Shown in pieces: positions 22,441 to 47,700 of a DNA stretch of 64,000 bases. Location of the stretch: positions 1,615,001 to 1,679,000 of the forward strand of contig NZ_CP048796.1 of assembly GCF_010748935.1 (NCBI RefSeq), read 5' to 3'. The stretch is from Providencia vermicola. GTDB taxonomy: Bacteria; Pseudomonadota; Gammaproteobacteria; Enterobacterales; Enterobacteriaceae. Numbering within the stretch: the stretch's first letter is position 1; each line of letters begins with the position of its first letter. A program made the translations under genes and the position numbers. The notes under the pieces were generated by a model. The model did not search any database, was not told the DNA's origin, and saw only the letters and a program-made list of their open reading frames with translations.

Positions 22441-22450
22441 TCCCCAAATT

Positions 22451-22487
22451 CATTCTTTTCATATTCATTCTTTTCATATTCATTCTT
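22451..22487. repeat. 15-bp tandem repeat upstream of glrK
   Basis: Two perfect copies of CATTCTTTTCATATT (22451-22465, 22466-22480) and a partial third copy lie between the glmY end and glrK. Confidence 0.85.
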
Positions 22488-42154: not shown

Positions 42155-42616
42155 ATGAGCATGTCGCAGCAATATGAATCGAATAAACCTTTAAGCGCCG
42201 ATAATGATATTGAATTTACTGAGTTAATTATCCCTGAAGGGGCCTCATTAAAACTCAGTGTGCTTGAAACAGAACCTGAAGCATTGACGGAAGCTTTAAT
42301 CGAATGCTTTAAGCAACACAAAGTAGTCCGTCGTGCCTTTTTAGTTTCTGCCCAAGCTGATGATGATACTGACGAAGCCATACTTATGGTGGCATTGGAG
42401 TTTGTACCCGGAACTGAAAATATCGATGAGATTATTCATCAAGCGGGGACTTTAGCTTGTGAGTATTTAAATGATAATGAGTCTATTGATTTTTGTTTAG
42501 TTAACGAAGCTGAAAAAGGGATTAGCCATTTTATCACTGAACATGTTCAACCTTTCTACCAGCGTAAGTTAGGTAGTTGGCTACGCGATACTATCCCGAT
42601 TAAAAATACCAAGTAA
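42155..42616 (+). CDS. sseB: SseB-like protein, C-terminal domain only
   Basis: 153 residues. The C-terminal part ('NEAEKGISHFITEHVQPFYQRKLGSWLRD') clearly matches the end of E. coli SseB (enhanced serine sensitivity protein), and the locus directly after pepB is the sseB position. E. coli SseB is about 258 residues; the N-terminal SseB domain is missing here and replaced by a short acidic leader ('QQYESNKPLSADNDIEFTEL'). No upstream remnant of that domain is seen between pepB and this start. The function of SseB is poorly known. Confidence 0.75.
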   Translation: MSMSQQYESNKPLSADNDIEFTELIIPEGASLKLSVLETEPEALTEALIECFKQHKVVRRAFLVSAQADDDTDEAILMVALEFVPGTENIDEIIHQAGTLACEYLNDNESIDFCLVNEAEKGISHFITEHVQPFYQRKLGSWLRDTIPIKNTK

Positions 42617-43094
42617 GTTTCCGCAGTGGGCTAGATAATGGCTCACTGTGCTTTTGGCCCGCCGTTGTTCTTTCTTATCTAATCACTATTTCCTCTAGCC
42701 CAAATAGCAGGGCGATATTTTGAGCACGTGTTCGAATTCTTCTGTTTTTCAGAGTAACTTTCACGGCGAAGTAGCTGAGTCGCTAATGACCCTTTCTGCG
42801 CTTAAGTGATACGGTTATCGTGCAATGACAAGCAGTAGGGGCACACTGTTTCTGCTAATTAGAAATAGTTAAATGACATCAATATGGCTAGATCACGAGA
42901 TGATACTTTGAGCTATGCTAACGGCGTAAATACTTTATGATGAGTTTGTTTGTGATGAGTCACGTTATCGCTTGAAATAGGACGAGTGTAGGGTCATTTC
43001 AAATGTGATGCCCTTTCTAAGGCAATAATCCATTGCACCTAAAAATAAATATCTACGATGATTTTTATAGGTTTATTTTAGATAAGGCTCAATA
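42617..43094. other. Intergenic region between sseB and rpn
   Basis: 478 bp. A weak CAGTG/CACTG hairpin near 42624-42650 could end sseB transcription. I see no gene, tRNA or clear repeat. Confidence 0.5.
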
Positions 43095-44033
43095 ATGAAA
43101 AAAGTACAACGACACTCAGCTCATGATGCGGCATTTAAAGGTTTTATGGCGCAAATAGAGAATGCTAAAGATTTTTTCCATTTTCATTTACCTGCTCACA
43201 TCCATGCGCTCTGTGATTTTGAAACACTCGCGTTAACCAATTCTTCTTTCATCGATAAACAGCTGCGTTCACGGTTATCTGACGTATTATATTCGGTCCA
43301 AACCGCAGAGGGTGATGGGTATATTTATTTACTTGTTGAGCATCAATCGTCACCTGATAAATTGATGGCTTGGCGATTAATGCATTATGCATTTTTAGCT
43401 ATGAATCAACATTTACAACAAGGTCATAAACACTTACCGCTCGTGGTGCCTGTTTTATTCTACCACGGAGATTGCTCGCCTTATCCATATTCACAACGAT
43501 GGACAGATTGTTTTCCATTAGCGGATGTGGCGAAGGATTTATATACCCGCTCTTTTCCCTTGGTTGATGTCACAGTCATTGATGATAATGAACTTGTTAA
43601 TTACCGTAAGGTTGCCATCATGGAATTAGCCATGAAACATAAACATTTACGGGATGAAAGTGAACACGTGATCTCCTTATTGGCTCAGGCGCTCAATAAT
43701 CACTATAATACTGATAGCGATGTTATTACTATTCTCAATTATTTATTTTTTACGATGGATGCAGCAAATGTTGAGAAAATAGTCCAACAATTGAGTGAAA
43801 AAACTGAAAAGCATCAAGAGGTTATTATGAGTATCGCACAACGTTTGCAAGAGAAAGGTGCCAAAGTGGGCTGGGCAAAAGGGCACCAGAAAGGATTGGA
43901 AGAGGGCCTTGAAAAAGGAAAGCATGAGGCAAACCTAGCGACAGCAAGAACGCTTTTAAAAAACGGTATTAGTCTTGAGTTAATTATGGAAAGCACCGGG
44001 CTAAGCCGAGAAGAACTTATTTCTCTTCAATAA
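43095..44033 (+). CDS. Rpn family recombination-promoting nuclease (full-length, RpnL)
   Basis: 312 residues, PD-(D/E)XK nuclease of the Rpn/Transposase_31 family ('SAHDAAFKGFMAQIENAKDF'). The likely catalytic residues are Asp63 ('RSRLSDVLYS') and Glu82-x-Gln84 ('YLLVEHQSS'). A helical middle part follows, then a C-terminal segment with a short KGLEEGLEKG repeat and 'LLKNGISLELIMESTGLSREEL'. Rpn proteins are DNA endonucleases; some act as toxins and in phage defence, restrained by a small C-terminal protein made from inside the same gene. The internal start is visible here (43827). The gene is alone between sseB and yfhM and is followed by a duplicate of its own 3' end. Confidence 0.88.
   Translation: MKKVQRHSAHDAAFKGFMAQIENAKDFFHFHLPAHIHALCDFETLALTNSSFIDKQLRSRLSDVLYSVQTAEGDGYIYLLVEHQSSPDKLMAWRLMHYAFLAMNQHLQQGHKHLPLVVPVLFYHGDCSPYPYSQRWTDCFPLADVAKDLYTRSFPLVDVTVIDDNELVNYRKVAIMELAMKHKHLRDESEHVISLLAQALNNHYNTDSDVITILNYLFFTMDAANVEKIVQQLSEKTEKHQEVIMSIAQRLQEKGAKVGWAKGHQKGLEEGLEKGKHEANLATARTLLKNGISLELIMESTGLSREELISLQ
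43827..44033 (+). CDS. Predicted nested RpnS antitoxin within rpn
   Basis: An in-frame ATG at 43827 (MSIAQRLQEKGAKVG) is preceded by AAGAGG at 43816-43821 with a 5-bp spacer, a better ribosome site than many real genes have. It gives a 68-residue protein identical to the Rpn C-terminus. For E. coli Rpn proteins such internally translated C-terminal proteins (RpnS) have been described as direct inhibitors of the toxic full-length form. Production here is inferred from the site and the family. Confidence 0.6.
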   Translation: MSIAQRLQEKGAKVGWAKGHQKGLEEGLEKGKHEANLATARTLLKNGISLELIMESTGLSREELISLQ

Positions 44034-44154
44034 TATGATAAGTTCCCCGTTTTGTTGATGCGAAAGGCGCTCTTTTCTTGAATTATTGCTCTTAAACGTT
44101 GAGAAAATAATCCAACAATTGAGTGAAAAAACTGAAAAGCATCAAGAGGTTATT

Positions 44155-44457
44155 ATGAGTATTGCACAACGTTTGCAAGAGAAAGGTGCCAAAGTGGGCT
44201 GGGCAAAAGGGCACCAGAAAGGATTGGAAGAGGGCCTTGAAAAAGGCATTGAAAAAGGCATTGAAAAAGGCCTTGAAAAAGGTATTGAAAAAGGCATTGA
44301 AAAAGGCCTTGAAAAAGGTATTGAAAAAGGCATTAAAAAAGGAAAGCATGAGGCAAACCTAGCGACAGCAAGAACGCTTTTAAAAAACGGTATTAGTCTT
44401 GAGTTAATTATGGAAAGTACTGGACTAAGCCGAGAAGAACTTATTTCTCTTCAATAA
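44155..44457 (+). CDS. Stand-alone RpnS-like protein with expanded 4-residue repeat
   Basis: 100 residues from the ATG at 44155, with the same AAGAGG-TTATT-ATG start as the nested gene. It is identical to the 68-residue RpnS at both ends, but the EKGL unit is expanded into nine consecutive EKG(I/L) units, adding 32 residues. In characterised RpnS proteins a dimer-forming helix carries four-residue repeats of variable number, so this is a plausible antitoxin variant with a longer helix. Expression needs a transcript reading through from rpn or an own promoter. Confidence 0.55.
   Translation: MSIAQRLQEKGAKVGWAKGHQKGLEEGLEKGIEKGIEKGLEKGIEKGIEKGLEKGIEKGIKKGKHEANLATARTLLKNGISLELIMESTGLSREELISLQ
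44235..44342 (+). repeat. 12-bp tandem repeat array (9 units)
   Basis: Nine units of (C/T)(A/C)TTGAAAAAGG encode repeated IEKG/LEKG. Unit types recur in a roughly 36-bp order (CATT, CCTT, TATT), suggesting expansion in blocks of three units. The parental copy has one unit at 43907-43918. Confidence 0.95.
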
Positions 44458-44512
44458 TATGATAAGTTCCCCGTTTTGTTGATGCGAAAGGCGCTCTTTT
44501 CTTGAATTATTG

Positions 44513-44797
44513 TCTTCGCATATTATAAGTCGTCGCAATATTTTCTATTGATATATTTGCTCATTATTTTTATACCCGCTATTGCCTATTTCACCCGCCG
44601 TATTGCCCCAAATAGTAAGATTTTTTCCGTTTTGTCTTATAGGTGCTCACCGCACAATCTGTTAAATTATATAATTGATTGATACAAACTATTTTAGTTT
44701 TCGCCTATTTTATCATCAGGTCAAAATTTTTATTGCTCTCATTGAGTTAGATGAGAGTGAAAGCTCAATATATTAACTATTAAAGGAAGAATCGGTC
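44513..44797. other. Intergenic region upstream of yfhM
   Basis: 285 AT-rich bp between the rpn duplication and yfhM. It contains no open frame of note; it should hold the yfhM promoter, and an AAGGAAG ribosome site lies about 8 bp before the ATG. Confidence 0.5.
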
Positions 44798-47700
44798 ATG
44801 AATCAACATTTTAGTTGGGCTTCATTGGCGGGTCTAAAGACAAAAAAACGTTATATTGCAGCGGCATTAGCTTCTGTCATTGCACTAACGGGTTGTGATA
44901 ACACAGACGACACAAGCAAAAAAGATACAAATATTGCAGCAGAAAACAAATCAACGGTAGAAAATCCAACGAAGACTGCACCACTTGCAACGGAAAATAA
45001 ATCTGCAACGAAATTATCTAAAGAAGAGATGATCAAGCGTTATGCAGGTAAAGAGTTAACGATTCTTGATGCCTCTGAGTTACAGCTAGATGGCGCGAGT
45101 GCAATTGTCGTTACTTTCTCTGTTCCCCTAGAGCAAAACCAAGATTTTAGCCAATTTTTAAATTTAGTTGATGTTAAATCAGGTAAGTTAGATGGCGCTT
45201 GGGAGCTATCTGATAATCAAATGGAGTTGCGCTTTCGCCATATACCGCCATCAAGAGAGCTAAATCTTACGGTCAATACGGGGATCAAAGCGGTCAATGA
45301 ACGGACAATAACTCAACCATTTGAGAAAAAATTACAAACGGCACAAATTATCCCGACAGTTGGGTTTGCAAGTAAAGGCTCCTTATTACCTAGCAAAGTT
45401 GCACAAGGCTTGCCAGTTATCGCATTGAATGTCGATAAAGTGGATGTGAACTTTTTCCGCATTGATGAAAAACAATTGCCACAATTTTTGGCAATGTGGC
45501 AATACCGTAGTAATTATGAATATTGGTATTCAGAAGAGTTCCTCAATAAAACCGAACTTGCCTACACAGGGCGTTTTGACCTAAATCCAACCAAAAATAC
45601 TCGTGAAACGGTTTTATTGCCGCTGAAAGAGATTAAAGAACTCCAGCAAGATGGTGTTTATTTAGCGATTATGCAAAAAGCAGGTAGCTATAGTTATCAA
45701 TTCCCTGCAACCGTATTTACGCTCAGTGATATTGGCGTGTCATTGCATAGCTATCAAGATCAGGTTGATGTATTTACACAATCACTGGCAAAAGGTTCTG
45801 CACTAAAAGGCGTGGAATTACGTATTCTTGATGAAAAAGGGCAATTAGTTAATAAAGCCACTACTGATGGTGATGGGCATGCCAAATTAGATAAGTTAGC
45901 GGGTGGGAAACTATTGTTAGCGACCCTTGATGGTCAAACAAGTATGATTGACCTGACACAGCCAGCACTAGACTTATCCGAGTTTGATATTTCAGGTCCA
46001 GTTGGTTATGCAAAACAGTTCTTTGTGTTTGGCCCTAGAGATTTGTATCGCCCAGGTGAATTGTTATTGGTGAATGGTTTATTACGTGATGGTGATGGCC
46101 AGCCAATTAAGGCTCAGCCAGTTAAAGTCGATGTTTTAAAAACCGATGGGCAAGTCGTTAGAAGTTTTGTGTGGCAGCCTGAACAAGATCACAATGGGTT
46201 ATACCAGTATCAATACGAAATTCCAAAATCCGCTGAAACAGGCGGCTGGTCTTTACGCTTTGATTTAGGTGATGGTTCACCGTTGCGTTACTATAAATTC
46301 AACGTTGAAGATTTCATGCCTGAGCGCATGGCATTGGAGATGAGTGCTCAAGAAAAACCTATTCTGAATAATGAGCCTGTTGAGTTTGATATTCAGGGGC
46401 GTTATTTATATGGCGCACCAGCCGCAGGTAATGAACTTCAAGGACAAATTTTTATTCGACCTGACCGTGAAGCGGTAGCAAAACTACCCGGTTTTGAATT
46501 TGGTTTTGAAAATGAGGAAGGGCTACAACGTAAGCTGGATGAGTTTGATTTAACATTAAATGATAGTGGTGAAACCGTTATCGCTGTACCCCAGAGTAAT
46601 TGGGAATCTTTGCGTTCACCAATTAAAGTTATTGCACAAGCGAGTTTATTGGAAGCGGGGGGGCGCCCTGTGACTCGCCGAGCAGAACAGGCGGTATGGC
46701 CGGCGAAAGCAATGGTTGGTATTCGTCCATTATTTAATAAAAAAGAAATTTATGATTATCGGACTGACCGTTACACACAGCGCTATAACGTCGATGAAAA
46801 CTCTCTTGCTGAATTTGAACTGGTATTTGCTGACGCGGCAGGTAATAAGCTTGCGGCCGAAAATTTAACCGCTCGTTTAGTCTATGAACGCCGTGATTAT
46901 TTCTGGAGCTGGTCAGAAAGTGGTGGCTGGACATCAAATTATGATCAAAAAGATTTGATGATGGCGAATGAAAACATCAAGATTGAAAAAGATGGTACTG
47001 CGAAAGTGTCTTTCCCAGTTGATTGGGGTTCTTTCCGTCTTGAAGTGATTAATGAAGATAATAAATTAGTTAGCAGCCTACAATTTTGGGCGGGTTATTC
47101 ATGGCAAGATAATGCGGGTGGTAATGGGGCTATACGCCCTGATCAAGTAAAACTAAGCTTAAATAAACCTGCATATTTACCTGGAGAAAAAGCAAAAGTT
47201 CGAGTGGAATCTCCTAAAGCGGGCAAAGGCTATATTTTGCTTGAATCCAGTAGTGGTCCGCTATGGTGGCAAGAGATTGACGTCCCTGAAAAAGGGATGG
47301 AAATTGAAGTGCCTGTTAATAAAGAATGGGCACGCCATGATCTTTATATCACTGCGGTAGTTGTACGCCCAGGGGATGATTCGAAAGAGGCGACAGTAAA
47401 ACGCGCTATCGGTGTACTCCATCTACCATTGGCGGATGAGAATCGTAAAATTGGCTTATCACTGACCGCACCCACAAAGATGCGACCTAATCAAGATCTT
47501 ACCGTTAAAGTGAAAGCAACCGCGCAAGATGGTAAACCATTACCTGAAAAAGTGAATGTGTTGTTGTCCGCGGTAGATACGGGTGTCTTGAACATTACTG
47601 ATTTTAAAACCCCTAATCCGTATGAAGCCTTCTTTGGGCGCAAACGTTATGGCGTAGACCAATACGATGTATATGGTCACTTGATTGAGGGGCAGGGCAA

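Follow-up and report, generated by a model that had tools for sequence, protein, structure and literature searches.

A stand-alone rpnS gene of the ypaA type, intact and predicted to encode a protein, was found directly behind the rpn gene of Providencia vermicola in the stretch of DNA analyzed here (64,000 nucleotides, referred to below as the window). Copies of this kind recur behind rpn genes of related genomes, most of them with a repeat number that differs from that of the neighboring gene, and judged from these sequences the spare copy most likely serves as an antitoxin for another length class rather than as a second dose of the nested antitoxin. The tandem layout of rpn and stand-alone rpnS was published in 2023 (Zhong et al., PMC10327210), and the window locus is a further case of it; added here are a survey of its recurrence and the repeat mismatch in most of the spare copies examined.

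The rpn locus and its nested antitoxin

The P. vermicola genome consists of 4,432,495 bases in 2 contigs, and the gene order on the chromosome is sseB-rpn-yfhM. The sseB gene (42155-42616) was recognized by a match to the SseB_C domain, while yfhM is the name that we take to belong to the 1682-aa open reading frame starting at 44798. Full-length RpnL, a PD-(D/E)XK-type nuclease/toxin of 312 aa, is encoded by rpn at 43095..44033 on the + strand. Its residues 9-209 matched PF04754 with E=1.7e-71 (240 bits, the cut-off being 21), and the protein scored over the model cut-off of TIGR01784 and under that of the RpnA equivalog model. Residues D11, D63, E82 and Q84 were present and showed no variation across a 10-sequence alignment (A1); the RpnA mutants D11A, D63A, E82A and Q84K are reported to have lost activity (PMC5350276).

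The nested rpnS (43827..44033, + strand) was read from the translated frame as a protein of 68 aa with one 4-residue repeat unit, its ATG standing 5 nt behind an SD-like AAGAGG (43816..43821, + strand). The start methionine, M245 of RpnL, was likewise unvarying in alignment A1. Residues 29-66 of nested RpnS matched PDB entry 7th0 (RpnA, 49 residues) with E=0.007, an entry that we infer to be the RpnA-S structure of PMC10327210. With its internal start and ribosome site the predicted gene has the nested toxin-antitoxin layout of Rpn systems, and the original prediction of an Rpn family gene with a nested RpnS was confirmed by the PF04754 match, the ATG at 43827 and the 68-aa frame. One other PF04754 gene (L063) was present in the genome; the survey described below returned no downstream copy for it.

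The stand-alone copy and its repeat array

Self-comparison of the window placed a duplicated unit, made up of the rpn 3' end and its 3' flank, at 43766..44088, with a second copy at 44094..44512 (both on the + strand). The 153-nt stretch 43766-43918 is repeated at 44094-44246 with 98% identity, and 43851-44088 is repeated in register at 44275-44512; the duplication is far above chance expectation. The earlier claim of a near-identical duplicate of the rpn 3' end stood, and its extent was revised: the second copy starts about 60 nt ahead of its start codon and continues for about 55 nt past its stop codon, beyond 44457, where the duplicate had been taken to end.

The stand-alone rpnS occupies 44155..44457 (+ strand) and encodes 100 aa, with its own ATG 5 nt behind an SD-like AAGAGG (44144..44149, + strand). 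Nine 12-nt units, each of 4 residues, were counted in it against one in the rpn tail, and a tandem-repeat scan resolved the expanded array at 44233..44342 (+ strand) as 9.2 copies of GGCATTGAAAAA. In all of these respects the separate RpnS cassette was found as it had been described. When the array was excluded, the two RpnS frames (row L064) showed 4 synonymous and 0 nonsynonymous differences. The product matched the C-terminal part of TIGR01784, partially and under the model cut-off; Pfam returned only a sub-threshold, repeat-driven match to Yae1_N, and DUF4351 (PF14261), by which separate RpnS is annotated in some species according to PMC10327210, had no match at E<=0.001 in the frame 44086-44457. 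As a predicted homologue of the rpn tail with its own start and ribosome-binding site and without the nuclease domain, the gene falls into the ypaA type. A perfect 15-nt tandem repeat of 2.7 copies was also seen elsewhere in the window, at 22448-22487.

An assembly artefact is unlikely, because the two copies differ in sequence, the genome assembly has 2 contigs, and a related tandem copy stands at the same locus in a relative (G009). In that relative, rpn and its spare copy are likewise found at sseB-yfhM, with one unit in the spare copy versus three in rpn; another relative (G001) has a single-copy rpn at this place without a spare copy. The 3' flanks of the copies are nearly identical both in the window and in G009. 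The 3' ends of the duplications differ between the two genomes, and G009 retains some diverged nuclease sequence between rpn and the spare copy (L065, at roughly 2572-2763 in the reversed locus). Given this remnant, the source of the G009 spare copy may have been a larger duplicate.

Published systems with the same layout

In the account of Zhong et al. (PMC10327210), RpnS is translated from inside rpn and blocks RpnL, and the 4-residue repeats of Rpn proteins sit in the first, dimerising helix of RpnS. When E. coli RpnC-S was given one extra repeat, RpnC was no longer inhibited, and vice versa; the only protein in which this length rule for RpnS-RpnL pairing was tested is E. coli RpnC. Separate downstream RpnS genes are known from the same work, namely ypaA behind rpnE and a copy behind rpnC, and the ypaA product (separate RpnE-S) is made in E. 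coli, where it was detected by tagging. Loss through deletion or fusion is also reported there, as is the lability of the repeats. The abstract, Results and Discussion of PMC10327210 hold no comparison of repeat number between rpn and the separate copy, and among the matches listed no further publication on separate RpnS genes was recognized by title or by the start of the abstract.

The ypaA/rpnE pair of E. coli resembles the window locus in having a separate, ATG-started RpnS gene directly behind rpn and akin to its tail, and in K-12 the pair is also unequal in repeats (rpnE 0 versus ypaA 1). It differs in that RpnE is only distantly related to the window RpnL (41% identical), in the gap from stop codon to ATG (12 nt in rpnE/ypaA versus 121 nt in the window), and in the spare tract, which has one unit in K-12 ypaA versus nine here; moreover, the ypaA product was detected by tagging, whereas that of the window copy is predicted. 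The nested RpnL/RpnS system shares with the window the PF04754 nuclease domain, the internal start and the 4-residue repeats, and the window goes beyond it in having a further RpnS, of greater length, located outside rpn. Specificity is likewise set by the number of 4-residue repeats in EcoR124I/II, whose TAEL repeats are named in PMC10327210, but only as an analogy, since the repeats set DNA spacing there and protein pairing in Rpn.

Recurrence of downstream copies

The survey began with 189 loci, which gave 183 rpn segments and 146 unique segments with a tail; the 143 of these with a stop codon and at least 350 nt of downstream sequence are the surveyed rpn genes. A downstream match to the gene's own tail at E<=0.01 was obtained at 38 of the 143 loci. 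An anchor test was applied to the 43 downstream segments; the 32 that passed it, from 29 loci, are referred to as scored copies, and 11 were set aside as weak, as remnants or for poor anchors. A search of related genomes for rpn loci with tandem 3' copies, which had been proposed as a check, thus returned scored copies behind 29 of 143 surveyed genes, a proportion that is distinct from a population frequency, since resemblance to rpn or to its tail was the basis on which the loci were collected. Scored loci were distributed over Providencia (7), Moellerella (1, with two copies), Photorhabdus (17, two of which carry two scored copies each), Xenorhabdus (3) and a further genus (1). Two downstream RpnS-like segments of unequal repeat number were observed at L140 (Moellerella) and at L197, L199 and L202 (Photorhabdus); the second segment of L199 failed the anchor test.

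Query P0003 was also run against phage and plasmid records. At E<=0.001 none of the 50,697 phage records matched, and phage-borne RpnS was not found in them. Matches were present in 84 of 72,556 plasmid records, the best 30 of the 84 being mostly full Rpn genes, and the window region 42600-44800 had no near match among the plasmid records.

Repeat number in rpn and in the spare copy

The length of the scored copy differed from that of the neighboring RpnL tail in 31 of 32 cases and was equal in 1. The difference was a non-zero multiple of 4 residues in 27 of the 32 and another amount in 4, and the +8 units of the window were the largest difference among them. In E. coli, 18 rpnE loci, selected from listings for diversity and hence a non-random set, were read: 11 have ypaA, 6 are single-copy and 1 is broken by an IS2-like element. 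Eight distinct combinations of rpnE/ypaA units were present (0/1, 5/1, 3/1, 5/2, 1/2, 1/4, 8/4 and 6/2), with 0 of 8 equal. The separate rpnC-S of some E. coli strains is like the window copy in layout, in its similar C-terminal part and in having a tract different from that of its neighbor; at the E. coli rpnC loci with a downstream copy, chosen in the same way, the tract differed in 8 of 8, in sequence as well as length, whereas the window units are of one type. The rpnC gene of L129 contains an internal stop. At L133 the stand-alone copy carries RQEV-type repeats such as are found at the end of RpnC in other strains; its own RpnC has mostly IEKG-type repeats, a contrast that possibly reflects exchange between the rpnC tail and the stand-alone copy.

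These counts bear on whether the spare copy is a redundant antitoxin that adds to the dose of nested RpnS and restrains the adjacent RpnL despite the length difference. The start, the ribosome site and the C-terminal part are common to both RpnS proteins, no terminator-like site was found between the copies, and the ypaA protein is reported to be made in E. coli (PMC10327210), all of which would suit such a role. Simple redundancy is nevertheless unlikely, because repeat number is unequal in nearly all scored copies and in every E. coli rpnE/ypaA combination, and because a single extra repeat abolished the inhibition of RpnC (PMC10327210). A need for the spare copy to match its neighbor is difficult to reconcile with such a mismatch. 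Mixed dimers, an earlier suggestion for the second copy, are accordingly improbable with the adjacent RpnL, as is its extra neutralisation, if the extra-repeat rule reported for RpnC holds here.

The mismatch was rejected as a sign of special selection. Random re-pairing (39 pairs in three groups, with some distances from poor anchors such as that of L195, score -2) gave 3.2 equal pairs expected versus 1 observed (P=0.13). Where the flanks shared 96% identity or more, the RpnL tails of two different rpn genes were equal in 6 of 36 comparisons, which are non-independent through shared members and through rpn genes taken from one genome, and RpnL-spare pairs were equal at 1 of 14 loci, each locus being counted once. 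From these comparisons the repeat tract is very labile, and since RpnL tails differ about as readily as RpnL-spare pairs, drift of a labile repeat would suffice to produce the mismatch. No nine-unit RpnL tract was seen among the tails listed.

Retention of the coding frame

An ATG or GTG start was present in 32 of 32 scored copies, a count favored by the scoring itself, which needed an intact start-region anchor. SD-like sites were found in 27 of the 32, SD-like tetramers occurring in 8% of random 13-mers. A spare copy free of constraint would be expected to show a pN/pS of at least 0.5. With the repeats excluded, pN/pS was 0.15 (bootstrap 0.07-0.35) in 15 close pairs and 0.41 (0.28-0.54) in all 32 pairs, the latter being compatible with neutrality; over the whole frame, 16 close pairs gave 0.16, and a set of 39 pairs to which 7 E. 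coli rpnE alleles contributed gave 0.34. The close-pair value suggests retention as a protein, and the all-pair value is non-deciding. A low pN/pS could also be produced by a cassette recently copied from another rpn tail.

At one Providencia locus the full rpn is present in G010 (L091), and at the same locus G011 (L073) has a gap in the nuclease sequence. A different gap, which reaches roughly as far as the internal -10 site and has nearly shared break points, is found in G007, G023 and G015 (L077, L083 and L095). The gaps in all four genomes are taken as deletions. Their RpnS frame is intact throughout and the repeat numbers vary; RpnS thus stands in these genomes without an intact toxin gene alongside.

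The spare copy might instead be a bystander, that is, a functionless recent tandem duplicate altered by slippage at the 12-nt repeat. The ease with which RpnL tails change repeat number, the 11 of 43 downstream segments that were weak, remnants or anchor failures, and the all-pair pN/pS are consistent with this explanation, while the low close-pair pN/pS, the start codon in every scored copy (although these were chosen for intact anchors) and the intact RpnS frames where nuclease sequence is absent argue against it. On balance we regard it as rather unlikely.

A promoter-like site within rpn

The coding sequence of rpn contains a promoter-like site, TTGGCT-N18-TATAAT, at 43680..43709 (+ strand; 10 of 12 in score), 117 nt ahead of the nested start and outside the duplicated unit. 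The promoter scan by itself was rejected as proof (5 sites found versus a mean of 6.9 in shuffles), as was the score of the window gene's site (p=0.25 among its own synonymous shuffles). In the 143 surveyed rpn genes, whose counts are non-independent in that the loci are related, p<0.05 against synonymous shuffles was reached in 20, and the best site scored 11 of 12 in 21 versus 1.5% of synonymous shuffles. Among the 77 genes with a score of 9 or more, 60 have a -10 whose end lies 117 nt ahead of the nested start. Tyr-Asn is encoded at the site in 66 of 143 loci (77 are without it), and the codons are TATAAT in 64 of these 66 versus 36.8 expected from gene codon usage. The conserved position and the codon bias support a sigma-70-like promoter candidate inside rpn. 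This accords with the report that transcription also starts internally in rpn genes of E. coli (PMC10327210). A scan of 42600-44800 showed no terminator-like hairpin. Because the promoter-like site is outside the duplicated unit and no such hairpin was detected, the spare rpnS may, most simply, be the second cistron of the antitoxin transcript.

Possible exchange between spare copies and rpn tails

In E. coli the single-copy rpnE alleles, 6 of 6, ended in a C-terminus of the ypaA type, their tracts numbering 0, 0, 0, 1, 2 and 2 units. Of the three tracts known from spare copies there, KLEG and KLEGLQEG were also found at the RpnE tail of other strains; in none of the E. coli loci read did the third, of four units, make up an entire RpnE tract. 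The tail data fit an interchange between cassette and rpn tail, with the single-copy alleles as putative fusions or ancestors. Of two earlier suggestions for the second copy, neutralisation of imported Rpn toxins may apply, and a donor role in rewriting the rpn tail, likewise possible, gains comparative support from these E. coli alleles.

Exchange of this sort could be all that the second copy provides, as a reserve tail from which the rpn 3' end is rewritten by deletion or conversion and whose protein is irrelevant. The ypaA-type tails of all the single-copy alleles read, the rpnE-ypaA fusion described in PMC10327210, and the near-identical 3' flanks of the copies in the window and in G009 favor a DNA donor. 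A donor, however, needs neither a conserved start and ribosome site nor the constraint seen in close pairs, and we consider a role as donor only quite improbable.

Proposed role of the spare copy

The reading that we prefer, tentatively and at somewhat less than an even chance, is that the spare copy is a length-variant antitoxin, kept for another length class and exchangeable with the rpn tail. It builds on the layout, the frame, the ribosome site, the repeat mismatch, the recurrence in relatives and the low close-pair pN/pS. The stand-alone rpnS would have arisen by tandem duplication of the rpn 3' end and would probably be co-transcribed with nested rpnS from a promoter within rpn. Once translated, spare RpnS would have a first (dimerisation) helix longer by eight 4-residue units. 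Because RpnS-RpnL pairing depends on repeat number, the adjacent RpnL would most likely not be neutralised by it, provided that binding specificity in Providencia is of the same kind. Spare RpnS would pair with RpnL forms that have, or acquire, its repeat length, and the spare sequence and the rpn tail would be swapped through recombination between the two copies.

In a more speculative form, which we think doubtful, the spare copy would be part of a length-coded layer of immunity: spare RpnS would block RpnL of equal repeat number and not the resident toxin, and recombination would swap the coded length. Its targets might, with the same reserve, be RpnL from other strains, RpnL from plasmids, or a future switched copy of the resident gene.

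If repeat number sets pairing, most of the separate RpnS proteins examined would be unfit for the adjacent toxin, even though constraint is apparent in close pairs. This leaves two possibilities: a length rule of limited generality, or spare RpnS proteins that target Rpn toxins other than the neighboring one. The natural rpnE/ypaA alleles of E. coli make this puzzle directly testable.
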